Source: a virus. From it: a stretch of 43,274 nt of DNA. The notes beneath the pieces are model-generated. The model made no database searches. It was not told the origin of the DNA and saw only the letters and a program-made list of their open reading frames with translations. Positions 12,672 to 43,274 of the stretch are shown in pieces. Numbering within the stretch: position 1 is the first letter of the stretch; the number at the start of each line of letters is the position of its first letter. A program made the position numbers and the translations under genes. The stretch lies in IMG/VR virus record IMGVR_UViG_3300014838_000003, positions 1 through 43,274 of that record. One strand, written 5' to 3'.

Positions 12672-12860
12672 CTACTTGCGGCGCCGACGCGCCGTCGCCT
12701 TGCGGCCCTTCCCCTTCTTCGCGACGCGCTTGCGCTTCGGCGGGGGCGGGGGCGGCATCGGGGGCATCCCTCCGCCGCCCAGGCCGCCCATTGCGCCGAG
12801 GCCGGGGCCTCCGCCGGGGAGGCCGGAGCCCGTGTCGGTGGTCGGCGGCATGACGCTCAT
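12672..12860 (-). CDS. Small Gly/Pro-rich protein with a basic C-terminus, 62 aa
   Basis: The sequence has a Gly/Met/Pro-rich half (GGLGGGGMPPMPPPPPP) followed by KRKRVAKKGKGRKATARRRRK. It is one of several small late-region proteins with low-complexity N-termini and protamine-like C-termini. It lies directly after the gene at 12865. No defined fold. Possible DNA-binding or condensing protein; inference from composition. Confidence 0.55.
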   Translation of the reverse strand: MSVMPPTTDTGSGLPGGGPGLGAMGGLGGGGMPPMPPPPPPKRKRVAKKGKGRKATARRRRK

Positions 12861-12864
12861 CGCG

Positions 12865-13098
12865 CTACGGGGTGAAGTCCGAGAACTTGTTGCCCGAGCT
12901 GGTGATCAGCTCTGCCGACTTCGAGTCGGAGTAGTGCGACTTGCCGCTGTCCTCCGGGCCGATCTGGGAGAAGCTGGTCGGAGCCGACTGCTTGGTCGTC
13001 TCTGTGCGCCCGGCGATCTCCTCTGCGGAGTTGAACCGCTGCGCGACGGGGACGCCCCGCTCGCCCTTGGTGATGATGCCGCCCTTACCACGAGCCAT
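12865..13098 (-). CDS. Small hypothetical protein, 77 aa
   Basis: ATG at 13098 follows GGAGGAAG, which fixes this start against longer readings. The N-terminus MARGKGGIITKGERG is similar to that of the protein at 28244 (MARRKGGIHIKAKNRG), suggesting a distant relation. The rest is Ser/Thr-rich and polar (SAEEIAGRTETTKQSAPTS and on), likely flexible. It lies between a beta-rich virion protein and the basic miniproteins. Function unknown. Confidence 0.68.
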   Translation of the reverse strand: MARGKGGIITKGERGVPVAQRFNSAEEIAGRTETTKQSAPTSFSQIGPEDSGKSHYSDSKSAELITSSGNKFSDFTP

Positions 13099-13112
13099 GT
13101 GATCTTCCTCCG

Positions 13113-13595
13113 TTATCCGATGCAGAGCCAGTTGAGCCCGAAGACCGTGTTGGCCTGCGAGGCGGTCAGGGTGCCCGTGGTGTTGATGGTGAAGCCGGTC
13201 ACGGTCTTGCCCGACGTCGTGAAGATGGCGGCGAACGGGAAGGCAGCGGTCGCCTGGGTGATCGCCTGGAGCCAGATGAAGAGCTGCGCGTTGGTCGTGA
13301 CCGGCGAGACGGTCAGGGTCAGCGCGTAGGGGAAGAGCACGGTGAGCACAAGCCCACCGGAGGGGGTCGCGGAGCCGGTCCCGAAGGTCAGGCTGCCCCG
13401 GAAGGGGTTGGACCCGCCCAGGATCACGGGCGCAGGCGGCGTGGTGCCCGCCGCGGCGCCCGCGGTCGCGGTCAGGTTGAGGGTCGGCCCGACCTGATCG
13501 AAGTTGCCCGAGATGAAACCGGCGAAGATGCCGACATCGACCTGGGGCCATGCCGAGTCGCCCGCGAGGGTTCTTGCGTCGAGTGTGCTGGGCAT
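13113..13595 (-). CDS. Beta-rich virion protein, 160 aa
   Basis: ATG at 13595 behind GAGAGGAC. The protein is dominated by Thr/Gly/Ala-rich strands (NLTATAGAAAGTTPPAP; GLVLTVLFPYALTLTVSP) with almost no charge, typical of capsid decoration or tail proteins. It lies two genes downstream of the major capsid gene, in the same operon. A capsid decoration or minor head protein is the best guess from the position. Confidence 0.62.
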   Translation of the reverse strand: MPSTLDARTLAGDSAWPQVDVGIFAGFISGNFDQVGPTLNLTATAGAAAGTTPPAPVILGGSNPFRGSLTFGTGSATPSGGLVLTVLFPYALTLTVSPVTTNAQLFIWLQAITQATAAFPFAAIFTTSGKTVTGFTINTTGTLTASQANTVFGLNWLCIG

Positions 13596-13605
13596 TTCGT
13601 CCTCT

Positions 13606-14394
13606 CTAGGCGATGGCGGTCTGGATGGAGCCGACCGTGACCGAGACGGTCGAGCTGCTGGTTGCGAACTCCACCTGGATCGAATCGTAGGTGAAGAGGT
13701 TGACGTAGCTCCCGGCAGCTCCGGGGGTCACGACGGCGGGGTTGGCGGTGAAGGCGGGCAGCGCGACGGCCTGCCCCGCGGGGAAGACCGGAGTGCCGAC
13801 CGTGCCGTTGCCGACCCATCCGAAGACGATGTTGTTGCCGACCGTGTAGACGGCCGGGGTTCCGGCGACGTAGGTCGCGCTCGGGGTCTGCGAGTTGACC
13901 GGGATGGCGAGCGAGCCCGCAGGCACCGCCGCCGAGGTGGTCCAGGTCTGGGCCGTGCCCGCCGCGTTGACGAGCACGAAGGTCTGCCCGCTGACCAGCG
14001 AGGTCGAGAGCGGCGCCGAGAGCGGGATCGAGACGAGCGCACCCCCGGCCGCCGTGATCTGGGCGCCCAGCTTGTCGATGGAGCGGACGATGCGGATGCC
14101 CAGGATCAACGTCACCTGGGCCGCGAGCAGGGCCACCTGGACGATCCAGGCACCCTTTAGCTGCTGGCACGGGACGTAGCCCCCCGAGGCGCCGCCGGTG
14201 GAGACGAGCGTGTCGGTGACCGCGATCCCACCGGAAAGCTGCGTGTCCGCTGGGGTGATGGTCGAGGCCGGGAAGTATTGCGCCCCGGTTGCGGCCGTGA
14301 TGGTGGACTGCCAGGTGAAGCCGTCTCCACCGTCGTACCAGGCGGAGTTGCCGTCCGGTCCGGTGACCGCGATTGCCGCTTCGAGCTTGTTCAC
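13606..14394 (-). CDS. Beta-rich virion protein downstream of the capsid gene
   Basis: I chose GTG 14394 (MNKLEAAIAVTGPDG), 5 nt after the capsid gene stop; the in-frame ATG at 14478 would overlap that gene by 79 nt. The 262-residue product is almost all beta strands and small residues, with segments such as TFVLVNAAGTAQTW and VYTVGNNIVFGWVGNGTVG. A hydrophobic helix-like stretch near residues 80-105 (VQVALLAAQVTLILGIRIV) is unusual for such a protein. Likely a head decoration or minor capsid protein. No enzymatic motif. Confidence 0.63.
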   Translation of the reverse strand: MNKLEAAIAVTGPDGNSAWYDGGDGFTWQSTITAATGAQYFPASTITPADTQLSGGIAVTDTLVSTGGASGGYVPCQQLKGAWIVQVALLAAQVTLILGIRIVRSIDKLGAQITAAGGALVSIPLSAPLSTSLVSGQTFVLVNAAGTAQTWTTSAAVPAGSLAIPVNSQTPSATYVAGTPAVYTVGNNIVFGWVGNGTVGTPVFPAGQAVALPAFTANPAVVTPGAAGSYVNLFTYDSIQVEFATSSSTVSVTVGSIQTAIA

Positions 14395-14399
14395 GGCCC

Positions 14400-15674
14400 T
14401 TAGCCCATCGTTCCGTTGGTGACCATGACGTGCGCCTGGCCGCTGTCGTTGGCGGTGTTCCGCATCTCCAGCGAGCACTTCGAGAGCGCCCGGAAGGCGT
14501 CACCGTCGTTCAGGGTCGGCGCCGTGAAGGCGTAGAACCAGCCACCGTAGAAGGGCCGGATGCGGATGCGGTCCACGTCCAGCAGGAAGAGCGTCGCGAT
14601 GCCCGGCGCGTCGTCGACCTTGCCGTCCAGCACGAACTGGATGCGGTTGCCGAGCGGGGTGATCATGTGGTCGACCACGAAGCCGCGCTCGTTCTCCGAC
14701 TGCTCGATGCGGATGAGGTCGCGGTAGAGCCGCGACGCCGCCTGCGCGGTGTTGAAGCCCCACAGCGCCGTGTCCGGCATCGCGCCCTGGCGCTGCACGA
14801 ACAGGTTGGCGAAGTTGACGGCCGCGTCCACCTGACCGGCGCCCCACCCCTGGGTGTTCCAGTTGTAGGTCGTGGTCGAGGAGGCGTTGATGGTGGTGTT
14901 CCAGGTCCCGTCCAGCCAGGCGTAGACGCCCGCCAGCGAGGAGAAGTCACCACCGGACACCAGCGGGGAGCCGTTGGAGCCCGCGTAGGGCCGCCCGTAG
15001 ATGAAGGTCTTGTTCCAGAGCCGGAGCAGCTCCTCCGTCCGGCGGTGGAACTGGTACTCCAGCTCGTCGCGGATGCCGGGGGTGTACCCGGCCCGGGAGC
15101 GCTGGATGACCTCCATCGACAGCGCCACGTTGAGTTCCTGGCGCTCGACGTAGTTCAGCTTGGGGATGCGGGCCCGGGAGGTGTCGGGCCCGAGGCCCGA
15201 GTATTCGATGGTCGGGATGCCGATGATCGAGTAGACCGCTCCCTGCGCGTGGGCGGAGGGGGTCGTCCCCGACCATCCACGGGTCACGGTCGCCACACCC
15301 TGCGGGGTGGAAACGCCGCTGACGTACAGCATCTCGCCTCCACCCAGGCCGCCCGTGGTGGCGCTGACGTCGACGAGCTGGGCGCCGGTGCGGAGGATCG
15401 AGATGTCGGCGTTGCTCAGGACGAGCTGGCCGGTCGCCCCGGCCGCCTGGCTGGGGAGGCCGCCCGACTGCGTGTCGGAGACGTAGTCGTTGTTGAGACG
15501 GTCCTCGTCCCACTGGCAGATGGTGTTCGCGAACTCCGGTCCCACGGGGAGGGTCGCCATGAAGTTGTCGGCCAGCTTCAGGACCGCGGCGAGATAGTCC
15601 GAGATGTCCTGGCGGATCGTGCCTGGGGCTCCCAGGGTCACCGACCCGGTGCCGATTCCGGTTGGGGTTGCCAT
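14400..15674 (-). CDS. Major capsid protein (DUF5309/SU10-like fold candidate)
   Basis: The 424-residue protein has the layout of a HK97-fold major head protein of the DUF5309 type. It has an N-terminal IRQDISDYLAAVLKLADNF and PEFANTICQWDEDRLN block, a beta insertion (about 90-160), a conserved segment ARIPKLNYVERQELNVALSMEVI, a helix EYQFHRRTEELLRLWNKTF (spine helix), and a C-terminal beta domain ending PLGNRIQFVLDGK and RIRPFYGGWFYAFT. It is preceded by its own promoter and by a terminator for the upstream genes, consistent with high expression. The gene upstream of the terminator region is a scaffold candidate. Confidence 0.87.
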   Translation of the reverse strand: MATPTGIGTGSVTLGAPGTIRQDISDYLAAVLKLADNFMATLPVGPEFANTICQWDEDRLNNDYVSDTQSGGLPSQAAGATGQLVLSNADISILRTGAQLVDVSATTGGLGGGEMLYVSGVSTPQGVATVTRGWSGTTPSAHAQGAVYSIIGIPTIEYSGLGPDTSRARIPKLNYVERQELNVALSMEVIQRSRAGYTPGIRDELEYQFHRRTEELLRLWNKTFIYGRPYAGSNGSPLVSGGDFSSLAGVYAWLDGTWNTTINASSTTTYNWNTQGWGAGQVDAAVNFANLFVQRQGAMPDTALWGFNTAQAASRLYRDLIRIEQSENERGFVVDHMITPLGNRIQFVLDGKVDDAPGIATLFLLDVDRIRIRPFYGGWFYAFTAPTLNDGDAFRALSKCSLEMRNTANDSGQAHVMVTNGTMG

Positions 15675-15697
15675 TTGTGGTCTCCGTGGAGGGGGTG

Positions 15698-15712
15698 GGT
15701 CAACTGCTGACC
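15698..15712 (-). other. Short hairpin in the capsid gene leader
   Basis: GGTCA (15698-15702) and TGACC (15708-15712) form a 5-bp stem with a 5-nt loop, about 24 nt upstream of the capsid ATG. It may protect the leader or tune translation. The stem is short and could occur by chance. Confidence 0.35.
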
Positions 15713-15810
15713 ACCGCTCCCTTCACGGGCGACGCGCCTGCCACGGTGACCGCCCGAGTGGGTCAGTGTGTGGTGGCGGCCCCTTCGTAGTGAGCCGGGG
15801 TTCCAAGGAC

Positions 15811-15840
15811 CTTATACGGCATACGAGCCGCTTGCGTCAA
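15811..15840 (-). promoter_or_regulatory. Strong sigma70-type promoter for the capsid operon
   Basis: Read on the minus strand: TTGACG (15840-15835), an 18-nt spacer, TATAAG (15816-15811). It lies between the terminator at 15853-15912 and the capsid gene, giving a leader of roughly 130 nt. Confidence 0.78.
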
Positions 15841-15852
15841 GTCCCACGATCG

Positions 15853-15912
15853 AAAAGGGTGGACCCGCCGGGGGTCGAGATGTGAAGCCGTCCCTCCCGG
15901 CAGGCCCACCCT
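15853..15912 (-). terminator. Intrinsic terminator ending the upstream late transcript
   Basis: In minus-strand RNA, AGGGUGGGCCUGCCGGG (from 15912-15896) pairs with CCCGGCGGGUCCACCCU (from 15872-15856) over 17 positions with two G-U wobbles, followed by UUUU (15856-15853). The wobbles would be A-C mismatches on the plus-strand RNA, so the structure is made for the minus direction. It begins 6 nt after the stop of the gene at 15918. Confidence 0.85.
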
Positions 15913-15917
15913 GAAGA

Positions 15918-16313
15918 CTACTCCCCCGGGAGCGCCCTGCGTACGGAGATCGACCCGCAGCTTGGGCACCTCACCAGCTCGGGCGGGTGCATCGCGTGGT
16001 CGTCGGAGTGGAAGGGCGGGCATTGGACGAGGTCCCCGCCCACCCGGACCTTGTGGCGCGGGCCTTCCGGGTCGACGCAGACCCACCGCTGGCGGGTGTC
16101 CGGTGGCGGCGGCGGATCGGGCTCCGGCACGGGGGGAGCCTCCTCGACCGGAGGTGCTGGGACACTCGCGACCGTCACCGCGAGGCTCTCAGAGCCGCTG
16201 GACGGCGAGGGGTCTGACGCGACCGCAGCGGGCGCCTCGACTGGAGCTTCCGGTTGGGGTGTTTCGGGCGCTTGCTCCGGTGCGCCTGCCAGTGCGTCCC
16301 ACGCCGATGTCAT
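15918..16313 (-). CDS. Pro-rich protein with a C-terminal zinc-finger-like domain
   Basis: The first 75 residues of this 131-residue protein are a Pro/Ala/Glu-rich, disordered arm (EQAPETPQPEAPVEAPAAVA and similar). The C-terminus holds WVCVDP, VQCPP, a His-rich stretch (HSDDHAMH) and CPSC, enough Cys/His ligands for one or two zinc sites. It is the last gene before the late terminator, translationally coupled (ATGA) to the scaffold candidate. It could be a head-assembly accessory, but only its position supports this. Confidence 0.7.
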   Translation of the reverse strand: MTSAWDALAGAPEQAPETPQPEAPVEAPAAVASDPSPSSGSESLAVTVASVPAPPVEEAPPVPEPDPPPPPDTRQRWVCVDPEGPRHKVRVGGDLVQCPPFHSDDHAMHPPELVRCPSCGSISVRRALPGE

Positions 16314-16933
16314 CGCCTACCTCCCATCAGGGTCTCGCCGGTTTCGAGGTTGACCCCGGCCTTCTCGCTCGCGTTGCCGATGACCAGATCGAGGATTCCG
16401 GGGTGGAACACCTCCTGGCCGCTACGGTCTGGGACGTTGCGCCCCGACAGGGCCAGCCTGCGGAACTCGGCGTTCTCGCGTCGGGCCTTGACGCCCTTGT
16501 CGAGCAGGGGCCGCAGCTCCTCCATGCGCCCCTCGACCGTCTGGGAGGGGACCTGGGCGGCCTGCCCGGAGGGCGGCGGCGGGGCCTGCCCCCACGATTC
16601 GCTCCCCGGCACTCCGCCCTTGGCCTGGTCGATGGACGCCTGCACCGTGGCGGCGAACTTCTCGACCTCGGCGGGGTCCTGGACGTGGGCGTACAGCTCG
16701 GGATTCACGCCCGGGAACTTCGTGGCGGTCGCGGTGCGGGCCTCGGCCAGCTTCCGCGCGCCCTCGACGGTGGCGTACTTCTCCTGCTGGAAGGCGGAGA
16801 CCTTGCGGTTCCATTCGACCTCGGCCTGGAGCCCGGCCACCTGATCGTGGCTGGCCTCGGCCGCGCCTTTGTCGGCCAGGAATTTCGCGTAGGCCGGGCC
16901 GTACCCGGGCAGGTCGTTGATGTCGAGCGACAT
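16310..16933 (-). CDS. Putative capsid scaffolding protein
   Basis: This 207-residue charged, mostly helical protein (AKFLADKGAAEASHDQVAGLQAEVEWNRKVSAFQQEKY; VQDPAEVEKFAATVQASIDQAK) has a Pro/Gly hinge near residue 110-125 and a helical C-terminus. Such helical, polar proteins directly upstream of the major capsid gene are usually scaffolds that guide procapsid assembly. No protease gene is seen. The call rests on position, size and helical composition, not on a recognised family. Confidence 0.55.
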   Translation of the reverse strand: MSLDINDLPGYGPAYAKFLADKGAAEASHDQVAGLQAEVEWNRKVSAFQQEKYATVEGARKLAEARTATATKFPGVNPELYAHVQDPAEVEKFAATVQASIDQAKGGVPGSESWGQAPPPPSGQAAQVPSQTVEGRMEELRPLLDKGVKARRENAEFRRLALSGRNVPDRSGQEVFHPGILDLVIGNASEKAGVNLETGETLMGGRR

Positions 16934-16935
16934 GG

Positions 16936-17286
16936 TCAGCTCCTCACTCGCTTGGGGTGGTCTTTCTGGATCATCGTCCGGGCGGTGTCGGGGACGAACT
17001 TGATCTCGTGGTGCTGGTCGCGGCCGAGCGACCCCTTGGACTTGACGATGACCGACGCCTCGCCGGTCTTCATGTTCCCCTCCTCGCGGACCACGACGGC
17101 GTCACGGTGCTCGCCGTGGAGGTCGAGGTCGACGTGCATCCCGGGGTCAAGCCCCAGGGTGCCATGCGAGGTCGGGGAGCGGCTGTCCAGCCACCCCTTC
17201 AGGTTCGGGTTCTCGTCCATCGAGGGGAGCGCCCGGCCGCGGCTGCGGAAGGGCGGCAGGCCGGGGATCGAGAAGAACTTGCTCAC
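16936..17286 (-). CDS. Hypothetical virion-block protein, 116 aa
   Basis: GTG start at 17286 behind GGAGACG. The N-terminus is Pro-rich (MSKFFSIPGLPPFRSRG); the second half looks like a beta-rich domain with HVDLDLHGEHRDAVVVREEGNM and a final basic tail (KDHPKRVRS). No cysteine pairs or catalytic motif. Encoded between the small protein at 17296 and the scaffold candidate. Unknown role. Confidence 0.65.
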   Translation of the reverse strand: MSKFFSIPGLPPFRSRGRALPSMDENPNLKGWLDSRSPTSHGTLGLDPGMHVDLDLHGEHRDAVVVREEGNMKTGEASVIVKSKGSLGRDQHHEIKFVPDTARTMIQKDHPKRVRS

Positions 17287-17295
17287 TCGCGTCTC

Positions 17296-17553
17296 CTAGC
17301 TCAATGTCTCCGACCACGTCGAGAAGGCGACGTAGGCGTCGTAGATTCCCAGGCCGGTCGTCCCCGCGGGCGGGCCCGTCTTCAGGTCGTGGGGCACCGC
17401 GCCGTCGTCGTTGGCGAAGATGCAGGTCTCCCCGTTGTAGGTGCCGTTGACCGGGGTGCCGTTGGCGCTCAGGAGCGCCGCGGGGATGCGGTACTGGTCG
17501 AACTCATAGCGCCCGCCGGTCGCCCTGCCGCGCCAGAGGAATCGTCCTGCCAT
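17296..17553 (-). CDS. Hypothetical virion-block protein, 85 aa
   Basis: ATG at 17553. A compact sequence with FLWRGRATGGRYEFDQYRIP, TYNGETCIFANDDGAVP and a short aromatic C-terminus (IYDAYVAFSTW). It looks like a small beta barrel or sandwich rather than a helical protein. It is spaced 9 nt from both neighbours. I do not recognise a family. Confidence 0.63.
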   Translation of the reverse strand: MAGRFLWRGRATGGRYEFDQYRIPAALLSANGTPVNGTYNGETCIFANDDGAVPHDLKTGPPAGTTGLGIYDAYVAFSTWSETLS

Positions 17554-17562
17554 TGCCTCAGT

Positions 17563-18543
17563 CTACCTCACGCGTGACTGATTACCAGTGGGCATCGTGG
17601 TCGGCGACTGGACGTAGGGCTGGAACTGACCGAACGCCCCGCCCGACGCCTTGAAGGTCGAGAGCGGGCTGGCGAGGTTCTGGATGGCCTGCTGCGAGGT
17701 GAAGCTGTTGCCGTACCGCTCCGAGAGCGCCTGCTTGTTGGTGAGCTGGTAATTCTGGAACTGGTTGTACGAGGTCATCCCGTATTGCAGGTAGCCGTAT
17801 TGCGAGTTGAGCGCCGGGTTCTTCTGGATGTAGTCGGTGATCTGGCCCGCCGACCAGCCCTGGGTGATCGCGGTGGCGAGCTGCGACTGGTCGAGGCCCG
17901 CCGACGCCCAATCATCCTTGCCGGTCAGCTCGAAGACGGTGTCGTTGAGGGCGTTGGCCGCCTGTGAGTATTGGGTGGCATTGAGGCCGGTGAGCGCCCA
18001 GGGCTGGGCCGTGGTGTCGACGCCGGTCACCTGGGCCATCCAGGCGAAGAGGGTCTCCGAGCTGGCGTCGGCCATCCCCGCCGCGAGGCCCTGGTTCAAC
18101 TGCTGCGGGGTGAGCAGGTACTTCCAGCCGGTGTTGGCGGCGAATGTCTGCGCCTGGCTGTAGAGCTGCCAGAAGTCACCGGCGTATTGCGGCGGCAGCG
18201 ACCAGCCCGCGAACGGGTTGCCGCTCTGCGCGCCGCCCTGAGCCTCGTAGGCCGACTGCTCCTCGGCGACGAAGGTGGCGCCCTCGCTGGAGGCGGGGAC
18301 GCCCTCGGCCATGAGCGCCGTGACCTCGGGCGCGAGTGCCTGGTCGAGCCCCTGGGAGCTGAGGGCGTTCGAGACCGTGGAGGCGTCGGTCGGGTCGGTG
18401 GTTAGCGTCGGTGCAGGCGGCGTCGCTGCCGGTGGGGTGGGCGTCGCTGCTGCTGGGGTGGGCGTCGGCGTCGGCGTCGGCGTTGCTGGGGTGGGCGGCT
18501 TGACCGGGTCCTGGCTGTTCGACCCGCCGCCTGCAACTGGCAT
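17563..18543 (-). CDS. Internal virion protein candidate with repeat module and Pro/Thr linker
   Basis: This 326-residue protein has an N-terminal low-complexity linker of Pro, Thr and Ala (about residues 17-50), encoded in part by (GGCGTC)n. The body has helical segments with Ala/Gln. Near residues 220-290 it carries the module GWSAGQITDYIQKNPALNSQ..GMTSYNQFQNYQ, related to one in the proteins at 20129, 20445 and 18543. It is coupled by ATGA to the transglycosylase-like gene upstream. I place it with the ejected internal proteins of short-tailed phages by position and by this shared module. Confidence 0.62.
   Translation of the reverse strand: MPVAGGGSNSQDPVKPPTPATPTPTPTPTPAAATPTPPAATPPAPTLTTDPTDASTVSNALSSQGLDQALAPEVTALMAEGVPASSEGATFVAEEQSAYEAQGGAQSGNPFAGWSLPPQYAGDFWQLYSQAQTFAANTGWKYLLTPQQLNQGLAAGMADASSETLFAWMAQVTGVDTTAQPWALTGLNATQYSQAANALNDTVFELTGKDDWASAGLDQSQLATAITQGWSAGQITDYIQKNPALNSQYGYLQYGMTSYNQFQNYQLTNKQALSERYGNSFTSQQAIQNLASPLSTFKASGGAFGQFQPYVQSPTTMPTGNQSRVR
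18461..18484. repeat. Hexanucleotide tandem repeat GGCGTC
   Basis: Four units (the last ends in T) encode Pro-Thr pairs in the linker of the 17563-18543 protein on the opposite strand. Such repeats can change length by slippage without a frameshift, altering linker length. Confidence 0.8.
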
Positions 18544-20129
18544 CAGCGCATCGCCAAGAGCTTGTCACGGACGCCGCGCGAGACGGGGGCGGCCGGGGCT
18601 GCCGGGGCGGGCGCGGTCGGCGCCTTCGGCTTGGGCATCGGCAGGATGTTCGAGCCGCCTGCCGGAGCCGCCCGCTGGGCGGGCTGCGCCGTCTGGGCCT
18701 GGTTCAGCCACGCCTTCTTGGTCTGGTAGTAGTCGCTCATCTCCTTCCACCCGGCGCCGGACGACGCGAGCATCGCGGTCTCGGAGGCCGTCGGCACTTG
18801 GTTAGTGTGGAGCATCGAGTGGAGCGTCGCAAGCGATTGGGCCTTGTTGAAGTTCGCGATCGAGACGTTGGGGAAGGTCGGGTGCGGCTGCGAGGAGAGC
18901 AGATTGGAGATGGAGGTCTCCGAGATCGGCTGCCCGGTGGCCTGGAGCTGCTGGTAAGTGGTGACGAAGTCGGAGACCGACGTGCCCTTGGAGGCGAGCA
19001 GGCGGCGCCGCTCCTGGGCGACCACCGGAAACCACTGGCTGAAAGCCTGCGGCGAGATGCCCGCGGCCTGGAGCTGGGCGGCGAAGGTGCCGACCTGTGC
19101 GGGCGGCGTCGGCGGGGTCTTCGGCGTCGGGCCCGCTCCCGTGCTCTGCGTGGCCGCCGCGGCCGTGACCGGGGCCTGCGTCGTCGCAGCGATCGGAGTA
19201 CCGGGGACGTTCTGCTCGCCGAGCAGCAGGTTGACGTCCTCGTCGGAGCCGCCCTGCCAGGTGCGGAGGTTGGCCTGGACGCCCGGGTCCTGGGCCATCT
19301 GGCTCAGGCTGGCGCCGCTCTGCATGAGCTTCACCATCTGGCTGTAGTTGCCGTTGAGAAGGGTCTGGGCGGTGGCCTGGACGCCCGCCTGCGAGCTGCT
19401 GAACGCCTTGACCCCGACGCTGTTGATGTCGGTGCCCTGCCCGCTGGTGGTCGCCAGCCAGTTGAAGTCCCCGAGCGGCATCCCTTCGCCGCGGGCCATC
19501 GTCGAGAGCAGCGCCACGTTGGCGGCGGTGACCGGGATGCCCGCCGCGGTGAGGACCGCCTGCATCGCCGCCGCGACCGTGGGGTTGGAGGCGACGGCGG
19601 TGCTGCCCGGCAGCGAGGTGAAGGCCACCGTCGAGCTGACGCTGCGGTAGTTGGCCTCGACCTGCGGCGACACCACGCCGCCCGAGGTGGACATGGTCTG
19701 AAGCTCGTGCAGGAAGGCGTCAGACCCGCCGATGAAGTCGTTGACGCTCGCGGGGTGATAGCCGCTCAGGCCCAGCGTGGGGTTGACGGCCGCCGCGCCC
19801 AGGATCGAGTAGACCTGGCCGCCAATCGAGCTGGTGGGGGACTGGTAGGCGTGGGGGTCGCCGGTCAGGTAGGCGCTGAGGGTCTGGTCCCAGGAGCCGT
19901 ACTCGTTGAAGGACTGCGAGAGCGATCGGGCCGCCGTCTCCAGCGCCAGCAGCGGGTTCGCTGCCGCCTGCGCCGCGGTCAGGTTGTAGGCCGCGAGCGT
20001 CGCCGTCGGCAGCCCGAACGCGGACGCCGAGCCCTCCGCGGACATGAGGCCCTGGAGGATCGCGGGCGGGATCGAGTAGCTCTGGGCAATCGCGACCAGG
20101 TCTTCGCTGCTGACGGCGGGGGCGGCCAC
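18543..20129 (-). CDS. Virion-associated lysozyme-like protein with two domains
   Basis: The 528-residue protein has two lysozyme-superfamily-like domains. Domain 1 (about 8-115) reads as a transglycosylase core: AIAQSYSIPPAILQGLMSAEGS, then ALETAARSLSQSF and EYGSWDQTLSAYLTGDP. Domain 2 (about 195-305) has a lysozyme core MARGEGMP..NWLATT, GVKAFSSSQAGVQATAQTLLNGNYSQMVKLM and a WQGGSDEDV end. Such virion enzymes cut peptidoglycan during DNA entry. A repeat module (HPTFPNVSIANF) lies near residue 425-445. The C-terminal tail is Ala/Pro-rich. GTG start at 20129. Catalytic Glu assignment is uncertain. Confidence 0.72.
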   Translation of the reverse strand: MAAPAVSSEDLVAIAQSYSIPPAILQGLMSAEGSASAFGLPTATLAAYNLTAAQAAANPLLALETAARSLSQSFNEYGSWDQTLSAYLTGDPHAYQSPTSSIGGQVYSILGAAAVNPTLGLSGYHPASVNDFIGGSDAFLHELQTMSTSGGVVSPQVEANYRSVSSTVAFTSLPGSTAVASNPTVAAAMQAVLTAAGIPVTAANVALLSTMARGEGMPLGDFNWLATTSGQGTDINSVGVKAFSSSQAGVQATAQTLLNGNYSQMVKLMQSGASLSQMAQDPGVQANLRTWQGGSDEDVNLLLGEQNVPGTPIAATTQAPVTAAAATQSTGAGPTPKTPPTPPAQVGTFAAQLQAAGISPQAFSQWFPVVAQERRRLLASKGTSVSDFVTTYQQLQATGQPISETSISNLLSSQPHPTFPNVSIANFNKAQSLATLHSMLHTNQVPTASETAMLASSGAGWKEMSDYYQTKKAWLNQAQTAQPAQRAAPAGGSNILPMPKPKAPTAPAPAAPAAPVSRGVRDKLLAMR

Positions 20130-35768: not shown

Positions 35769-35814
35769 TTCTCACCCATTGTGGAGTGGGCCCCGGAGGT
35801 GTTACCCTCCGGGG
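35755..35814 (+). promoter_or_regulatory. Divergent control region with 9-bp hairpin
   Basis: A possible plus-strand promoter TTGACC (35755-35760), 16 nt, CATTGT (35777-35782) reads toward the gene at 35816; its -35 lies in the small membrane-protein gene. A perfect inverted repeat follows: CCCCGGAGG (35791-35799), 6-nt spacer, CCTCCGGGG (35806-35814). It ends one base before the ATG at 35816. It could be an operator shared with the divergent late operon or an RNA hairpin covering the start. Confidence 0.5.
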
Positions 35815-35815
35815 G

Positions 35816-36202
35816 ATGATCCCAACACCGGACAGTAGCAGATTCTCCCCCCGGGCGCCAGCCCGCAGCGCGGATGACGTCTGTCACCGTTGCGGGAGAG
35901 CCTCTCGGACCACCTGCTGCCCGGGATGCGCGCAGATCGTTCAGCTCACCGTAGACGTGCCGCGCGAGGCGCGCGTGTGGATGAAGGTCAGCGTGGACGA
36001 CGAGGTGGGGCGGGCCTTGCTTCTTCGGGTTGGGGCGGTCTATGATCCCGACACCGAGATGTGGAGTGCCCAACCGCCCGCCGCCCCCCTGAGAGAGCGG
36101 TTCGGTTGCGTCCCGAACCCCTATAGCTCCCATCAGCTCACGCCTCCCGAACGCGGCAACGTGAGCAGCATATCCGATCTGATGCTCTCGGCGTTGCGAT
36201 GA
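35816..36202 (+). CDS. Zinc-binding protein, 128 aa, first gene of the miniprotein operon
   Basis: I chose ATG 35816; GTG 35786 would read through the hairpin and is less likely. The N-terminal third has CHRC and CCPGC (VCHRCGRASRTTCCPGCAQ), a zinc ribbon. A beta segment VQLTVDVPREARVWMKVSVDDEVGRALLLRVG follows, and the C-terminal part has no clear fold. Its stop overlaps the next ATG. Because all three following genes are also tiny and partly zinc-binding, it may be part of a small protein complex or a set of host-interaction factors. Confidence 0.7.
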   Translation: MIPTPDSSRFSPRAPARSADDVCHRCGRASRTTCCPGCAQIVQLTVDVPREARVWMKVSVDDEVGRALLLRVGAVYDPDTEMWSAQPPAAPLRERFGCVPNPYSSHQLTPPERGNVSSISDLMLSALR

Positions 36203-36405
36203 TCAACTCCCCCTACGCCCCGCTCGGCTACGGCCGGACCTCGTGGGCCCCCTGCGCCGAGCCCGACTGCGAGCGCAAGGTGGGCTTGGCCTCGGGCAAC
36301 GTCTACTGCCAGCTCCACCGGCCCAAGGATGCGCCGCGCTGCTGCGGCTGCCAGGCGCCAATGCCCAAGGGCGATTTCGCGCTATTCTGCGAGGGATGTC
36401 GATGA
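36199..36405 (+). CDS. Zinc-finger-rich small protein, 68 aa
   Basis: Two Cys-rich parts are visible: CAEPDCERKVG..NVYCQLH near residues 19-40 (C-x4-C ... C-x2-H, the same pattern as in the protein at 2874) and CCGCQAPMPKGDFALFCEGC near 48-67. ATGA coupling on both sides. Nothing enzymatic. The small size and two metal sites suggest a nucleic-acid-binding or protein-binding adaptor; this is inference. Confidence 0.75.
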   Translation: MINSPYAPLGYGRTSWAPCAEPDCERKVGLASGNVYCQLHRPKDAPRCCGCQAPMPKGDFALFCEGCR

Positions 36406-36485
36406 GCTGTGACCCACCCGTCGTCGTCGACCACCGCCCGGTTCGCCTGGACAACGTCGAGGCCGAGGAGGGCCACCCACTGTGA
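36402..36485 (+). CDS. Putative micro-protein, 27 aa
   Basis: ATG at 36402 overlaps the previous stop as ATGA, and its own stop overlaps the next GTG (GTGA), so it is exactly framed by both neighbours. The peptide (MSCDPPVVVDHRPVRLDNVE and seven more residues) has no motif. It may be a coupling relay that carries ribosomes from 36199 to 36482, or a real peptide. Confidence 0.5.
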   Translation: MSCDPPVVVDHRPVRLDNVEAEEGHPL

Positions 36486-36691
36486 AGTTCCCGCCCCGCG
36501 AGACCCTCACCGAGACGCTCTCGGGCAACCTGCGCGCCCACGTCGGGCGGGCGGCCCACGAGGACATCAGCGTCTTCCCGTGCATCCGCTGTCACACCCC
36601 CGTCAGCCGCCGGGCCAAGGGCTATTGGGGCTCCAGCCTGTGCCCGAAGTGCCAGCCCACCGTCTACCCAGAAGGGAAGCCCACCTTCTGA
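36482..36691 (+). CDS. Zinc-ribbon miniprotein, 69 aa
   Basis: GTG start overlapping the micro-protein stop. CIRC and CPKC (VFPCIRCHTPVSRRAKGYWGSSLCPKCQP) form a zinc ribbon in the C-terminal half; the N-terminal helix (TLTETLSGNLRAHVGRA) precedes it. It is the last gene of the plus-strand miniprotein operon. The downstream CTGACC/GGTCAG inverted repeat (36688-36720) lacks a T run and is weak as a terminator. Confidence 0.72.
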   Translation: MKFPPRETLTETLSGNLRAHVGRAAHEDISVFPCIRCHTPVSRRAKGYWGSSLCPKCQPTVYPEGKPTF

Positions 36692-37441: not shown

Positions 37442-37478
37442 AAAAGAGAACCGCCCCGACGCGGTGCCGGAGCGGTTC
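37442..37478 (-). terminator. Intrinsic terminator for the MoxR/VWA operon
   Basis: In minus-strand RNA GAACCGCUCCG (from 37478-37468) pairs with CGGGGCGGUUC (from 37458-37448) over 11 positions with one U-G wobble, loop of 9, then UCUUUU down to 37442. It lies 21 nt after the stop of the gene at 37499. A second GAACCGC copy (37494-37488) could compete for the same arm. Confidence 0.82.
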
Positions 37479-37498: not shown

Positions 37499-37744
37499 TC
37501 AGCTCGGGACGATCAGCTCGCAGTCAACGCCCCGCAGCACCGCGATCAGCGCGCGCCGGTCCGGGTTGTCGCTGCCACCGGTCCGGAAGACGCGGAAGAC
37601 GTCGCCGCCATCCTCCCAACTCGCGACGATCTCCACGCCCAGCTCCCAACCCTGACACCGCGCGGCGGCCCCGGTGGATTTGTCGCCCAGCCGATGCACT
37701 GCCCGACCGCGGCGACTACTGATCTCCGCCAGGTACTGAGCCAT
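37499..37744 (-). CDS. Hypothetical protein, 81 aa
   Basis: ATG at 37744 behind GGAGGG. The sequence (AQYLAEISSRRGRAVHRLG; CQGWELGVEIVASWEDGGDVFRVF; RTGGSDNPDRRALIAVLRGVDCELIV) looks like a small alpha/beta fold. No catalytic motif. It is the last gene of the MoxR/VWA operon. It may be a dedicated partner of that system, based only on position. Confidence 0.7.
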   Translation of the reverse strand: MAQYLAEISSRRGRAVHRLGDKSTGAAARCQGWELGVEIVASWEDGGDVFRVFRTGGSDNPDRRALIAVLRGVDCELIVPS

Positions 37745-37745
37745 C

Positions 37746-37955
37746 TCACACCCTCCCCGGGTGCAGCTCGCGCCCGATCTCGGCGGCCAGGACGCTCTCG
37801 CAGCCCGGGCAGACCATGTGAACCGTGTCGCCCAGCTCATGGCCAGGCTCGCCCAGACGCGCGGCGAGTTCCGCCCGCCATCCACACTCCTCACAGGTGA
37901 TGCGGATGTGGGGCAGGTGCCCCCGCTCCGCCCGTTGACTGTTCGGCCATCTCAT
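37746..37955 (-). CDS. Small zinc-binding protein, 69 aa
   Basis: I chose ATG 37955, with AGGAGAGG upstream. An ATG at 37976 overlapping the VWA stop (ATGA) gives 7 more residues and is possible. CEEC and CPGC (ITCEECGWRAEL..; HMVCPGCESVL) form a zinc ribbon. The protein is coupled to the VWA gene. Its neighbour's upstream partner, the AAA+ protein, also carries a zinc ribbon, so metal-binding ribbons are a repeated feature of this operon. Confidence 0.75.
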   Translation of the reverse strand: MRWPNSQRAERGHLPHIRITCEECGWRAELAARLGEPGHELGDTVHMVCPGCESVLAAEIGRELHPGRV

Positions 37956-37972
37956 CTCGACACCTCTCCTCA

Positions 37973-39583
37973 TCATGGCGGGGTGAGGAACCCGCGCCAC
38001 CCGCTACCGTTGGCGAACGTCCGAACCGCCCCCTTGGGGGTCCGGTGGTGACAGATGGCGAGCGCATCCTCGATCCGCCGGACCCTGACGATCTGGGCCG
38101 TCCGGGCGATGGCGAGAGCGGTTGCCCGGCCCTCCGGGGTTGGCGGCATCCCACCCATGCCGCCACCGATGCGGCCCGAGTGCGCCTCGCCATCCGACAA
38201 CCAGATGCGCGGCCCGCGCTGGCGGGCGAGCCATTCGAGAGCCTCCAGGTCGCTCATGTTGCAAGTGTCCCACTCATCCGCCACCGGTTCGGCCCAGCGG
38301 CCATCCCGGGCGAGGATGCAGATACGCGGGCAGCGACGTTCCGAGCCATCCGCGCCGGTCTCAATGACGGCCCCATGCGCGGCTACCGTAAGCCCGGGAA
38401 GCTCGCGCATGGCTGCGCTCAGAGCGTCCCAGTCCCATCCCATCGAGCCGGAGATGTCGATGGCCATGGCGCCGCCCGGCCGCGACGCGGCGAAGACGCA
38501 CCGGTCTCCGGCCCGCCAACGCTCGGGCCGGAGGACACTCGACCCGTCAATCCGGGTACCGCGGCGGAGCTTGACGGGGCGTGTGCCCACTCCGCGGCGG
38601 ATGTGGTCGTGGATCAACCCGGCCGGGTTGGCCTCCCGGGGCAGGAGACCTGCCAGCGGCGCACGTTCGTTCGGCTCGTCTGTTTGGTCCTCGGCCTCCT
38701 GACGCTCCGCCGCCGCCCGGCTCGCCGCCGTCCTCACGGCCGCCTCGATCCTCTCGGTTAGCTTCCGTTCGGCGTGTGGGTCGCTCCGCTTCCACGTGGC
38801 GGGCTCGGTGGCGCCCAGGGTGCCAGCCCGGGGCAACTCATCCGTCACAGCGAATTCCGGGACCTCCCCGCCGCATCCGGTGGGGGTGACGCGGGTTTCG
38901 CGGCGGCCCGGGGCCGCGCCATCGCCCGCTCCGCCGCCGCCCGGCTCGCCGCCCGTGCCCTCTCCGTCACCCTCGGACCGCTTGGCGGCCGGAGGGTTCG
39001 GCAGGGTTCGCCACCATTCCGCCGCAGCGGTCGCGGTCGCAGTGGTCGGGTCCGCAGCGATCCTCCCCACCCATGCCGCCGCATCCGCCGTCAGCGGCCC
39101 CATGACATCCGCGAGGCGCCGCAGCGCGGCGCCCAGCTCGGCCGGACAGCCGGGCCGCGGGGCAGGCTTGCCCGTCCGGCCGAGCGCGCCCGTCCCCGCT
39201 GTCAGTGCTACTTGCCAGAACCCCAAGACCGCATCCCGCGCGTCCTTCGTGGCGCGGGCCGCGGCCAGGATCGTTGGCGCGGCCCCGTCATGCCGACGGG
39301 TGACGTCTAGGTCCCCCACCCGCGCCAGGACGTCCATTCGGACCTCCTCAGCCATGCGGAGCGGGGGGTCACACGCCACAGGCGGAGTGTGGGCCGCGTG
39401 GAGTGCCTCGTGGAGCCGGATAGCCTCTTGTGGCGGCCCGGTCGGGTCGGGCAGGGTCAGCACCCGGTCGCGAGGGTTGGTGCTCCCATTGTTGGGGTCA
39501 GGGTTGCGCTCAACCCGCCAGGGTTCGCGCCGGTCGGCCCTCGCCCAGACTTCGGGGTGCGCTGCGACTACGTGACCTTTCAC
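37973..39583 (-). CDS. VWA protein with HEXXH metallopeptidase-like N-terminal domain
   Basis: This 536-residue protein starts at GTG 39583, overlapping the AAA+ stop (GTGA); a start at 39661 would overlap more. Near the N-terminus HEALH (58-62) is an HEXXH zinc motif, with EEVR (79-82) in the place where similar proteins have a third ligand (ED.R-type). A Gly/Pro/Ala-rich low-complexity part follows (about 215-280). The C-terminal VWA domain has a MIDAS: DISGS (376-380), DTCN (T440), and D464 in WLSDGE. It resembles CobT- and ViaA-type VWA proteins that work with MoxR ATPases. The ATPase would use the VWA domain to reach a substrate or a metal-dependent partner. No function is known for the phage forms. 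Confidence 0.85.
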   Translation of the reverse strand: MKGHVVAAHPEVWARADRREPWRVERNPDPNNGSTNPRDRVLTLPDPTGPPQEAIRLHEALHAAHTPPVACDPPLRMAEEVRMDVLARVGDLDVTRRHDGAAPTILAAARATKDARDAVLGFWQVALTAGTGALGRTGKPAPRPGCPAELGAALRRLADVMGPLTADAAAWVGRIAADPTTATATAAAEWWRTLPNPPAAKRSEGDGEGTGGEPGGGGAGDGAAPGRRETRVTPTGCGGEVPEFAVTDELPRAGTLGATEPATWKRSDPHAERKLTERIEAAVRTAASRAAAERQEAEDQTDEPNERAPLAGLLPREANPAGLIHDHIRRGVGTRPVKLRRGTRIDGSSVLRPERWRAGDRCVFAASRPGGAMAIDISGSMGWDWDALSAAMRELPGLTVAAHGAVIETGADGSERRCPRICILARDGRWAEPVADEWDTCNMSDLEALEWLARQRGPRIWLSDGEAHSGRIGGGMGGMPPTPEGRATALAIARTAQIVRVRRIEDALAICHHRTPKGAVRTFANGSGWRGFLTPP

Positions 39584-40605
39584 CTCGGCCTCGTCCCGCG
39601 CTTCTGGATGTCTTGGCCGCCATCCGCCCATTCGTGCCATTCGGCGAGACACGCGGAGCACTTCAGATGCGCTACCCCGCCCCGCTTGAAATCCGTTCGC
39701 TGCGCGATGTCGCAGTTGCCCGGGTCGGACCCGGTGCCGGTCTGCCCGCAGTCAGGGCACGTGAGCGTGTGGTCGTCGACGCCGACGACTACCACCGTGT
39801 CGGTGTCGCCGCTCGCCCGGTTGCGGGCGCTCTCACCCTTGATCATCTGCAAGCTCTCCAGCCATGCCCGCAGCTCGTCTCCTGTGTCCTCACCCATGAT
39901 CGCCAACGCCGCGGTCTCATCGTCGATCCCCGCCGCTCTCGATTGGCAGAAAGAAAGGCAATCGCGGTAACTCGGCCGGGGACCGATCTCCCATTCGGAT
40001 TGGGGGAGGGCCGCGTATGCCCGCTCAACCCAGACCCGAACGTCATGGTCAAGCCGGGCGAGTTGCCCGGCGCTCGGTCGCAGAACTGCAATCCGCATCG
40101 CGAACCGATCTCGCAGCGCGTCTGATAGGACGAGGCTACCCGCGTTTTGGGTGGCGATGCATCCAAACTCGGCCCGGGGCCGCAGGATGGTGCCAAGTGC
40201 AGTAGTGTCGGTCGCGATGCTCGGGTCATCCAATGCGTTGATGATGCGTTCGTGGCAGTCTGCCGATCCCCGGTGCAGCTCATTGACGATCCATAGGCCG
40301 CCGTGATGCCAGGCGCGCTGACCCGGCCCCTGAGCTTCCCGCATCCCGCCCGTCTCATTGGGGACGAGACCTCCCCAGATGCGGGATTCGAGGGTCTCGG
40401 ATGTGAGGGTCACCTGCCACCAGGGCCGAGTTTCGGTCCCGTTCAGACTGCCGAAGAGGGTAGACGCCCGGGCGATCTCGACCGCTAGCGCCGTCTTGCC
40501 GGTCCCAGGCGGCCCCACGAGCAGGACCCTCTCTCCGCCGTTCGGGAAGCGCTTGCGAATGAGATCGGGAACGGTGTCCCGCGGTATCTCTCGCGCTGTT
40601 GCCAT
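39580..40605 (-). CDS. MoxR/CobS-type AAA+ ATPase with C-terminal zinc ribbon
   Basis: This is a 341-residue protein. ATG 40605 is preceded by GGAGG at 7-8 nt. Walker A is GPPGTGKT (31-38), sensor 1 TQN (152-154), and the arginine-finger segment RDRF (165-168). The Walker B region reads GGLWIVNELHRGS with N108-E109, so the usual Asp is Asn, which may weaken ATP hydrolysis or change metal binding. The C-terminus (281-325) has CPDC and CSAC, a zinc ribbon absent from standard MoxR proteins. The stop overlaps the VWA start, giving a MoxR-VWA pair like CobS-CobT or RavA-ViaA. Confidence 0.87.
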   Translation of the reverse strand: MATAREIPRDTVPDLIRKRFPNGGERVLLVGPPGTGKTALAVEIARASTLFGSLNGTETRPWWQVTLTSETLESRIWGGLVPNETGGMREAQGPGQRAWHHGGLWIVNELHRGSADCHERIINALDDPSIATDTTALGTILRPRAEFGCIATQNAGSLVLSDALRDRFAMRIAVLRPSAGQLARLDHDVRVWVERAYAALPQSEWEIGPRPSYRDCLSFCQSRAAGIDDETAALAIMGEDTGDELRAWLESLQMIKGESARNRASGDTDTVVVVGVDDHTLTCPDCGQTGTGSDPGNCDIAQRTDFKRGGVAHLKCSACLAEWHEWADGGQDIQKRGTRPR

Positions 40606-40631
40606 TCGGTTTAGCCTCCGCTCGCCCCGGG

Positions 40632-40637
40632 GTATAA
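40632..40637 (-). promoter_or_regulatory. Possible -10 element of the MoxR operon
   Basis: TTATAC reads toward the MoxR gene 27 nt upstream of its start. No good -35 is visible at 16-18 nt; instead three TGTGAG sites lie just upstream, so the promoter may need an activator. Weak evidence. Confidence 0.35.
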
Positions 40638-40657
40638 CGGGGCCGAGAGGCAATCAT

Positions 40658-40695
40658 CTCACAGCCCGCCTCACATCTGCCACATCCGCCTCACA
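40658..40695 (-). repeat. TGTGAG(GCGG) direct repeats upstream of the MoxR gene
   Basis: Minus-strand TGTGAGGCGG occurs twice (40675-40666 and 40695-40686, 20 nt apart) and TGTGAG a third time (40663-40658). The same TGTGAG occurs on the other strand at 40905-40910 and 40938-40943, facing the opposite gene. Confidence 0.7.
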
Positions 40696-40711
40696 AGGAC
40701 GCACCCATGCT

Positions 40712-40822
40712 CGGCACGCCCATCCGACCCGACCATCCGTTCGGTACGGATGTTCGATGTAGGGCCGCCCGGTACGGATGTTCAGCACGTCCGTTCGGTA
40801 TGCCTGTTCGGCACGGATGTTC
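40712..40822. repeat. Iteron-like direct repeat array
   Basis: CGGTACGGATGTTC occurs exactly at 40742-40755 and 40770-40783, with one mismatch at 40809-40822, and more loosely at 40796-40809 and 40712-40725. Starts are 28, 26 and 13 nt apart. TCCGTTCGGTA occurs at 40736-40746 and 40790-40800. Candidate binding sites for a replication initiator or repressor. Confidence 0.85.
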
Positions 40823-40876
40823 GGTGCGGGGGAGGGCGAGGGCGAGCTTCTGAAACAGCCGTCGCCGGGGGTCTGC

Positions 40877-40907
40877 TTGACAAAATCTTCCGCTACGCCC
40901 ACACTGT
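40877..40907 (+). promoter_or_regulatory. Promoter candidate for the early operon
   Basis: TTGACA (40877-40882) with a weak -10, best read as CACACT (17-nt spacer) or CACTGT (19-nt). The -10 region overlaps the outer arm of the inverted repeat at 40900-40941, so a protein bound there would block it. Confidence 0.5.
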
Positions 40908-40941
40908 GAGAAGTTGCCTACGGTGAGCGTAGGCCAGTGTG
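40900..40941 (+). promoter_or_regulatory. Compound inverted repeat, operator or RNA hairpin
   Basis: Inner perfect stem GCCTACG (40916-40922) / CGTAGGC (40928-40934) with loop GTGAG. Outer arms CACACTG (40900-40906) / CAGTGTG (40935-40941), separated on the 5' side by 9 nt. The 3' arm runs into the ribosome-binding sequence GAGGTG (40941-40946) of the gene at 40954. Confidence 0.72.
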
Positions 40942-40953
40942 AGGTGAACCCAC

Positions 40954-42018
40954 ATGGTGACCGAGACCGGCCGGGAGTTTCTCCCGAATCTGCCCAAGGA
41001 CCTGCGCGCCGTGGCGCGGGCGGCCCTGGATCGCGGGTGCCGCCTGGGGCGAGCGTCCAGCGGCATCCATGCGTATCGGCTCTACTGCCCGGACGGCAGC
41101 TACCAGCCGATCAACGCCCACTCTCACACCACCCTCTCGCGCGGGTGGATCGACAACTTCAAGGGCAGCCTGCGGGCCGCGGGGGTCGACGTCGACGCCC
41201 CGATCCCGCCGTCGCAGGTGGCGCCGATGCCGAAGCTGACCCACAGGCAGCGGATCGTCGAGCTGCTGACCACGGCCACGAAGCCGCTCACCCGCCACGA
41301 GGTCGAGGCGGCGCTGGGGTCGACCTCGGGCGGCGTCTCCGAGGCGCTCCTGGAGCTGGCCTCCCGCGGCGTCATCGAGACCAACCGCATCCGCACTGCT
41401 GGGGCGCCCGCCCACACCTACCGCCTGCACCGGCCGACGGTCACCGGCAGCTTCCCCGACTTTCACCTCCTATCCGCGGAGGCGATCGAGCGGGCCCCCG
41501 AAGCCGTGACGGAAATGGTCGCCGTCCCCAGGTTGTCGGCGTCGCCCTCCCGCCCCGGGCTGCCAGCGGGCCGCATCCGCCTGAGCCCCGGGCGCCGCAC
41601 CGAGCTGATCCGCGGGTGGTTCGTCGCCCATCCCGGCGAGCAGGTTACCCAGAGGCAGCTCGCGACCTACCTGGGCCGGCCTGGCGCCAGTTGCGGCGAT
41701 GCCTACATCCAGCCCCTCATCAACGAGGGCGTGGTCGAGGAGTTGACCGGCCACAAGCGCGCGAGCAAGGTCTACCGCTCGGTGGACCCGCTGCGCCACG
41801 CCACCATCGAGGCGCGCAACGTCCCCACCTTCGAGGCGTCGACCGCGACCGTATCCGTGCCGGGGATGACGTTCTCCGAGGGGGTCGCGCCCGCGCCCAC
41901 CCTCGCCGACGGCGCCCGTAGCCGCTACCTGGAGCTGCTCCTGAAGGCCGCAGAAACGGCCCCGAACGCCGACACCTTCGACCGCATCGAGCGCATCCTG
42001 GGAGGACCCAATGTCTGA
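40954..42018 (+). CDS. DNA-binding protein with HicA-like domain and two winged helices
   Basis: This 354-residue protein starts at ATG 40954 behind GAGGTG. Residues about 15-78 (LRAVARAALDRGCRLGRASSGIHAYRLYCPDG, then LSRGWIDNFKGSLRAAGV) fit the small alpha/beta fold of HicA-like RNA-binding domains. Residues about 95-160 (HRQRIVELLTTATKPLTRHEVEAALGSTSGGVSEALLELASRGVI) and 208-278 (LIRGWFVAHPGEQVTQRQLATYLGRPGAS) each look like a winged HTH. It lies beside iteron-like repeats and an inverted repeat, so it may be a repressor or a Rep-type initiator that controls its own gene. The HicA part lacks a visible catalytic His consensus, so toxicity is unlikely to be assumed. Confidence 0.7.
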   Translation: MVTETGREFLPNLPKDLRAVARAALDRGCRLGRASSGIHAYRLYCPDGSYQPINAHSHTTLSRGWIDNFKGSLRAAGVDVDAPIPPSQVAPMPKLTHRQRIVELLTTATKPLTRHEVEAALGSTSGGVSEALLELASRGVIETNRIRTAGAPAHTYRLHRPTVTGSFPDFHLLSAEAIERAPEAVTEMVAVPRLSASPSRPGLPAGRIRLSPGRRTELIRGWFVAHPGEQVTQRQLATYLGRPGASCGDAYIQPLINEGVVEELTGHKRASKVYRSVDPLRHATIEARNVPTFEASTATVSVPGMTFSEGVAPAPTLADGARSRYLELLLKAAETAPNADTFDRIERILGGPNV

Positions 42019-43108: not shown

Positions 43109-43274
43109 TCGTGGCGGTGGTCCACCATCGCCACGTGGGCGGCGACACGCGCGGCGCGCCGGTCGGGAATGGTGACCCTGCGAGCCATCGCTGCGGCGGG
43201 ATGGGACTTACGCAACGCGGTAGAGGCGGAGCGGTTGGCATGGGTGGCCATCGGCCAGTTGGACCCGCCAGACG
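43097..43274 (+). CDS. Small protein of unknown function, 5' part (continues at position 93)
   Basis: ATG at 43097 overlaps the previous stop (TAATG) inside repeat copy G. The N-terminus is MSVKSWRWSTIATWAATRAARRSG. The frame runs to the window end and, on the circle, through the bases from 93 to TAA 197-199, for 94 residues in total. It begins MSVK like the gene at 199 because both share the repeat. Confidence 0.7.
   Translation, partial: MSVKSWRWSTIATWAATRAARRSGMVTLRAIAAAGWDLRNAVEAERLAWVAIGQLDPPD
43183..43274. repeat. Terminal direct repeat, right copy
   Basis: Identical to positions 1-92. One copy should be removed to represent the 43,182-bp circle. Confidence 0.97.

Follow-up and report, generated by a model that had tools for sequence, protein, structure and literature searches.

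A four-gene phage operon led by a MoxR-type ATPase and a VWA protein

The sequence analysed here is the IMG/VR virus record IMGVR_UViG_3300014838_000003, 43,274 bases long (hereafter the window, meaning this whole stretch). It carries four closely packed genes on its minus strand, from 40605 to 37499, in the order ATPase, VWA protein, miniprotein and last gene. The first two, a MoxR-type ATPase and a VWA protein with a putative zincin site, are the main subject of this report. The end of the ATPase gene and the start of the VWA gene overlap by 4 nt, and the gaps that follow are of 17 nt and 1 nt. The four genes are:

39580 to 40605, minus strand: MoxR/CobS-type AAA+ ATPase of 341 aa, ATG start
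37973 to 39583, minus strand: predicted zincin-like and VWA adaptor protein of 536 aa, GTG start in the 4-nt overlap
37746 to 37955, minus strand: zinc-ribbon-like miniprotein of 69 aa (CEEC...CPGC)
37499 to 37744, minus strand: 81-aa protein matching family phrog_5927 (5.1e-16)

The initial annotation had described the first two genes as a MoxR-type ATPase coupled to a VWA-HEXXH protein; this description, with the coupling taken as translational, is upheld by the overlap, the motifs and the match of the ATPase to PF07728 (AAA_5; E 4.8e-12, 46.5 bits against a cut-off of 22). In PHROGs the ATPase matches phrog_16448 (ATPase; 3.1e-17) and phrog_249 (CobS type, labelled 'porphyrin biosynthesis'; 9e-10), and hhalign against a profile of eight related phage ATPases gave 98.3% at E 1.1e-14. 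The Walker A motif is GPPGTGKT at residue 31. Residues G31, G34, G36, K37, T38, N154 and R167 are invariant in the ATPase alignment, and G78 and G102 are conserved in the region that aligns, by sequence alignment only, with the helix-2 insert. The role names that we use for residues of this protein (sensor-1 Asn, catalytic Glu and the arginine finger in DRF) are our own presumed assignments. The last 60 residues form a C-terminal tail that resembles a zinc ribbon, with CPDC at 283 and CSAC at 316, and such a CxxC tail occurs in none of 85 related ATPases. No close relative of the ATPase was found in phages by tblastn at E 1e-5.

The VWA protein carries HEALH at residues 58-62, EEVRMD at 79-84 and, as its metal ion-dependent adhesion site (MIDAS) motif, DISGS at 376-380. 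Its counterparts of the family signature residues are H58/E59/H62, E79/E80/R82/D84 and D376/S378/S380, and the HExxH motif together with the downstream conserved Glu makes up the putative zincin site. When the protein was shuffled 200,000 times, HExxH arose in 4,000 shuffles, HExxH followed by [ED][ED]xRx[ED] in 41, and both followed by DxS[GA]S in none, which places the combination of motifs above chance. Searches of Pfam, PHROGs and PADLOC assign the protein to no family at E<=1, those of NCBIfam assign it to none convincingly, and PF13203 (DUF2201_N, a putative metallopeptidase) has no match in the window. Profile comparison nevertheless indicates that it is probably related to a phage HEXXH-VWA family. 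Of the 18 window proteins tested with three profiles of that family, it is the sole one above background, with local hhalign matches scoring 38.6-47.2 against best background scores of 21.0 among the 17 other window proteins and 24.3 among 60 shuffles. It also aligns over its full length with the relatives, with HExxH, ExR and DxSxS in register.

The possibility that the four genes are chance or misread open reading frames (ORFs) was ruled out by the family matches, the motif shuffles and the start and ribosome-binding signals. The ATG starts are preceded by purine-rich stretches that resemble ribosome-binding sites; for the VWA gene, an alternative upstream GTG start is possible at 39661.

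Conservation and linkage of the pair in relatives

A tblastn search with the ATPase at loose limits led to phage DSL-LC01 and hence to the VWA family. The gene next to the ATPase in this Actinomycetia phage specifies a 609-aa protein that contains HEALH and DISGSM and has relatives in Gordonia and Microbacterium phages, making 21 records when it is counted among them. Scans of IMG/VR found 156 relatives (80 kept), a Microbacterium-type query found 137 (80 kept) and another scan found 2. The final set held 160 loci, with the VWA gene called in 156 and 68 of these non-redundant at 90% identity. HExxH, [ED][ED]xRx[ED] and DxSxS are kept in all 68, and an ATPase gene lies directly upstream (within 400 nt) of the VWA gene in 60. 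Among the remaining eight, one locus ends at a contig edge, four have the ATPase farther away or overlapping (L097, L116, L123 and L061), and three have none called (L099, L074 and L071). For two of these last, L071 and L074, an ATPase was present in an earlier scan of stop-to-stop ORFs, which recovered the three motifs in 80 of 80 relatives and an ATPase in the locus in 78. The initial annotation had made its case depend on conserved linkage and on conservation of the HEXXH and MIDAS residues, and for the pair the relatives bear it out on both counts. The invariance of HExxH and ExR across the 68 relatives suggests that the zincin-like domain is under selection, and from these comparisons the window pair is probably a remote and very divergent member of a large phage family.

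The actinophages that carry the pair (DSL-LC01 and the Gordonia phages GMA2, Phendrix, Sixama and Mareelih) resemble the window in having the ATPase gene followed by the VWA gene on one strand, and their VWA proteins likewise present HExxH, ExRxE and DxSxS in this order. They differ in that identity is about 20%, their genomes are of 103-195 kb, and their ATPases have longer N-termini and lack the C-terminal CxxC tail. Unlike in the window, one or two genes lie between the ATPase and VWA genes in the Gordonia phages, and in Microbacterium phages such as Pumpernickel the VWA gene is present with the ATPase elsewhere. In 62 of the 68 relatives a gene of about 161 aa (e.g., L130:4346-4831), with no Pfam match, stands just before the ATPase gene; its product is likely a third part of the machine in those relatives.

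The signature extends beyond the actinophages. A 'peptidase' of cyanophage P-SSM4 shares it (HEVGH, LEDARIE, DWSGS), with a profile score of 44.5 where 40 shuffles reached 21.9 at most, and P-SSM4 belongs with haloarchaeal viruses to the viral 'cobST' clusters, in which a CobS-type AAA protein is paired with a VWA protein with MIDAS, as in the window. The window proteins are too divergent from these to be matched by BLAST, CobN was not found, and in P-SSM4, unlike the window, one gene lies between the ATPase and VWA genes. A VWA protein on a plasmid of Halomonas sp. KO116 has HEAAH, FEDCRIE and DMSYS. Judged by these motifs, this plasmid too carries a protein of the zincin-VWA type, in company with a recombination gene: the cluster there (L179:5118-12823) has the VWA gene near genes for an AAA ATPase, a lambda-exonuclease family protein and DUF3150.

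Phage ATPase-VWA pairs have been published before, frequently under the labels 'CobST' or 'peptidase'. PMC2147016 notes a Bacillus phage MoxR pair in 2007, PMC7911831 notes a haloarchaeal virus pair in 2021, and biochemical data on an archaeal virus pair are given in PMC4124505. The initial annotation had stated that the role of such pairs in phages is not established; this holds for their function, but the pair itself is described for many viruses in PMC8651126, PMC2147016 and PMC7911831. Our literature searches found no paper that treats this phage or reports HExxH and ExR as invariant. What is new here is the finding that the HExxH/ExR module does not vary, the likeness to NorD and Rea1 described below, and a very divergent member from a small phage with an NE Walker B motif and a zinc-ribbon tail.

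Predicted structure of a family relative

A model of a relative built from a 35-row alignment has a mean predicted local distance difference test score (pLDDT) of 85.2. Its N-terminal part comprises strands at 40-44, 53-56 and 61-65, followed by the HExxH helix at 92-107 and the ExR helix at 121-142, an order of helices and strands that fits a zincin; the structure matches cover mainly residues 354-595. No fold for the N-terminal part appeared among the PDB matches, but the VWA domain took up those lists, which therefore carry no weight for that part. The top five Foldseek matches are VWA structures of NorQ-NorD (8.1e-07 to 2.3e-05). VIA placed the Rea1-MIDAS structure 6qtb_A first (Z 17.1, root-mean-square deviation (rmsd) 3.1, 199 aligned residues) and gave NorD, 9qh8_G, a Z of 15.4 (rmsd 9.9, 233 aligned). 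No match was found between the sequence profile of the family and solved structures (best E 0.21). The VWA fold of the family is thus well supported by the model, which also suggests kinship with AAA-coupled VWA domains.

A proposed ATP-driven machine and the evidence against it

Our favored interpretation, to which we assign a probability of roughly 0.6, is that the ATPase and its zincin-VWA adaptor constitute an ATP-driven protein-remodelling machine, with the two small genes as accessory passengers. In this proposal the first two genes would encode one machine, in which the ATPase forms a MoxR-type AAA+ ring and uses ATP despite its altered Walker B motif. The C-terminal VWA domain of the adaptor would dock via its MIDAS site onto the ring or onto the target, and the charged linker would transmit force. 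The N-terminal zincin-like domain, with HExxH and the downstream acidic/Arg helix, would bind metal and either act on the remodelled target or be opened by it. PMC13036017 describes ATP-driven pulling or twisting by NorQD that inserts metal into nitric oxide reductase, and by analogy the phage ring may act on the linker by twisting or pulling it, which would let the zincin domain act on its target. A general scheme in which a peptide is caught by the VWA domain and changed in conformation by the ATPase is set out in PMC7159879. NorQ/NorD, which serve in non-haem iron insertion, are like the phage pair in the type of gene pair and in the VWA fold of the family model; unlike their setting, no nitric oxide reductase is seen in the window phage. 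Because the adaptor carries a conserved zincin-like domain, metal-dependent handling or cutting of a remodelled target appears the likeliest activity, and we give remodelling or metal handling a slight edge over proteolysis.

Several observations weigh against this proposal. The family hidden Markov model gives the window VWA protein 2.4 bits (E 1), which is no significant match for the whole protein. At E 0.01 a tblastn search of 50,697 phage records gave no match to the protein, viral and genome contigs were scanned and yielded no close relative of the window proteins, and at E 10 tblastn returned one chance-level match in phages and one in plasmids; pairwise BLAST against the DSL-LC01 protein was likewise not significant (best E 0.30). 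The MIDAS, which the initial annotation had called clear, is clear at DISGS but ambiguous at its third aspartate. Spacing and alignments make S444 and D464 (LSDG) likely candidates for the remaining residues, in an alignment that is itself ambiguous, and 57 of 60 MAFFT subsets align RDG427, not SDG464, with the third MIDAS motif. The window protein's own model, from a 5-row alignment, has a pLDDT of 32.4 and was not used for fold searches; its helices at 51-64 and 73-88 and its strand at 459-463 before SDG fit our interpretation and, in a model that failed on confidence, carry no weight. Many generic VWA domains reach VIA Z scores similar to that of NorD, so that the likeness to NorD is not exclusive. 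In the ATPase the Walker B-like sequence is IVNEL, which keeps Glu109 and replaces Asp with Asn where 7 of 7 aligned relatives have DE; it thus departs from the hhhhDE pattern, and this Asn could mean a weak ATPase.

Alternative explanations

One alternative draws on the viral 'cobST' clusters, for which it has been proposed that a phage CobS/CobT joins host CobN and raises the cobalamin supply; PMC8651126, in which this hijack of CobN is put forward, the CobS-type match to phrog_249 and the annotation of the related DSL-LC01 VWA protein as a 'cobalamin biosynthesis protein' all agree with it. Neither PF06213 (CobT) nor PF02514 (CobN) has a match in the window, the scanned window proteins included no B12-dependent enzyme, and the passages considered state no part in chelation for an invariant HExxH domain. 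CobN was also not found in the records of 19 relatives, though a hijack needs none there, given that host CobN could serve. In sum, we consider cobalt chelation by this pair decidedly unlikely. A wider proposition would be that phage 'CobST' pairs in general are not cobalt chelatases but form a virus-specific class of metalloproteases or metal-site remodellers gated by ATP, their zincin being controlled by a MoxR ring via a VWA switch, with the window pair as the most divergent seen here and its zinc-ribbon parts added for targeting; this is conceivable, and we put it forward only tentatively, as somewhat doubtful.

Assembly of the virion offers another setting, in which the pair would remodel tail or head proteins and be late or packaged. 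The precedent is the p618/p892 pair of Acidianus two-tailed virus, also a virus-encoded MoxR ATPase with a VWA partner: according to PMC4124505, p618 (MoxR) binds p892 (VWA) and virion proteins, and that pair differs in having its role in the growth of tails outside the cell. The lysis-like and terminase genes share the strand of the operon, which is upstream of them, and in 34 of the 68 relatives the VWA gene is preceded, at a distance of about 4.4 kb, by a gene cluster whose representative has a CHAP domain. The operon, however, is served by a divergent control region and a hairpin of its own, small plus-strand ORFs separate it from the late genes, and its GC content at third codon positions (GC3) is 0.77-0.83 compared with 0.87-0.95 in the large genes of the structural region. 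The separate control of the operon and its location away from the structural genes favor an accessory, host-directed role, and we regard virion assembly as unlikely. A conflict module, serving defence against other phages or counter-defence in the manner of MoxR-vWA ternary systems, seems very improbable. PMC7159879 places such pairs at the core of conflict systems that it proposes, and a homologue of the last gene stands beside anti-restriction genes in one phage record of 57, yet what lies next to that gene in a different phage is little guide to the pair. PADLOC found nothing for genes 2-4 and its ATPase matches are mostly confined to the P-loop, with bpMoxR at 16.0 bits against a cut-off of 27; the third conflict component was not seen. 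MoxR-VWA pairs are widespread in viruses and often labelled cobalt chelatase or peptidase. The selection indicated for the zincin-like domain makes metal or peptidase activity directly testable, and the two-gene version from a 43-kb genome would be a convenient test object for it.

The two small genes

The initial annotation had treated all four genes as one set that might recur in other phages, and here the comparison went the other way, with the CxxC tail absent from the 85 related ATPases, the family of gene 4 seen in mycobacteriophages and the pair not detected in the one of those phages examined. By tblastn, phrog_5927 has 57 mycobacteriophage records. In one of them, Mycobacterium phage LittleCherry (L180:3001-4651), the gene 4 homologue is the immediate upstream neighbour of an anti-restriction gene, and two genes beyond that comes an ArdA-like gene; the profiles of the pair matched nothing in this record, an empty answer obtained without a positive control. 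The miniprotein has no Pfam family above cut-off and a weak match to phrog_19456 (3.8e-4) that uses a longer frame of 84 aa. Other small plus-strand ORFs with paired CxxC motifs occur at 35786-36202, 36199-36405, 36482-36691 and 1-453, and with such ORFs common across the genome, the presence of a zinc-ribbon miniprotein is unremarkable and provides no special evidence. A short plus-strand ORF with two CxxC motifs lies within 1.2 kb downstream in 23 of 83 relatives, a count of stop-to-stop ORFs with no background control that neither supports nor refutes the association. From these comparisons, genes 3 and 4 seem to stand outside the conserved machine, as accessory passengers on the same transcript.

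Control region

The features that flank the operon are:

37448 to 37478, minus strand: hairpin of 13 pairs followed by TCTTTT, a likely terminator
40731 to 40822, between the operon and the divergent regulator-like gene: operator-like repeats CGGTACGGATGTTC and variants, with phasing of about 13 nt
40954 to 42018, plus strand: divergent gene, a possible regulator, whose similarity to winged-helix proteins (TrmB/MarR type) is weak and below cut-off

Upstream of the operon a divergent gap of 348 bp spans 40606-40953. Matches to the repeat with at most 3 mismatches number 11 in the window compared with 3.55 expected, 5 of the 11 fall within the 92 bases at 40731-40822, and one CGGTACGGATGTTC-like copy sits within the palindrome CATCCGTTCGGTACGGATG; this cluster is probably an operator array. 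The initial annotation had given the operon its own control region and a strong terminator. The first part finds support in the operator-like repeats, though no sigma-70-like promoter site was found. As for the terminator, the 13-pair hairpin is present and the 81-nt stretch around it folds at -34.8 kcal/mol (z -2.2), but the T tract is short and the 2 terminator-like sites in the region are not above the shuffle mean of 1.3. The low GC3 of the four operon genes contrasts with the 0.87-0.95 of most other large genes and is equalled in a few other genes of the genome.

Genome context

A direct repeat of 92 bp at the ends of the record (1-92 identical to 43183-43274) indicates that it is probably a complete genome, circularly assembled or terminally repeated. 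Protein matches to phrog_38 (terminase, 1.6e-12), phrog_1328 (major head protein, 2.5e-7) and phrog_561 (RecT-like, 4.7e-7) identify the virus as a tailed phage. Eight of 10 large window proteins have no Pfam match at E 0.01. Near kin of the whole phage were found neither by megablast of window positions 1-20000 nor via a second AAA protein, and the search via the terminase gave one distant locus. This second AAA protein is encoded in the late region on the minus strand at 7977-9044, is of Clp type (AAA_2) and matches phrog_4339 at 4.7e-39; its gene is followed on the same strand, at 6019-7977, by one for a 652-aa protein assigned to no family.

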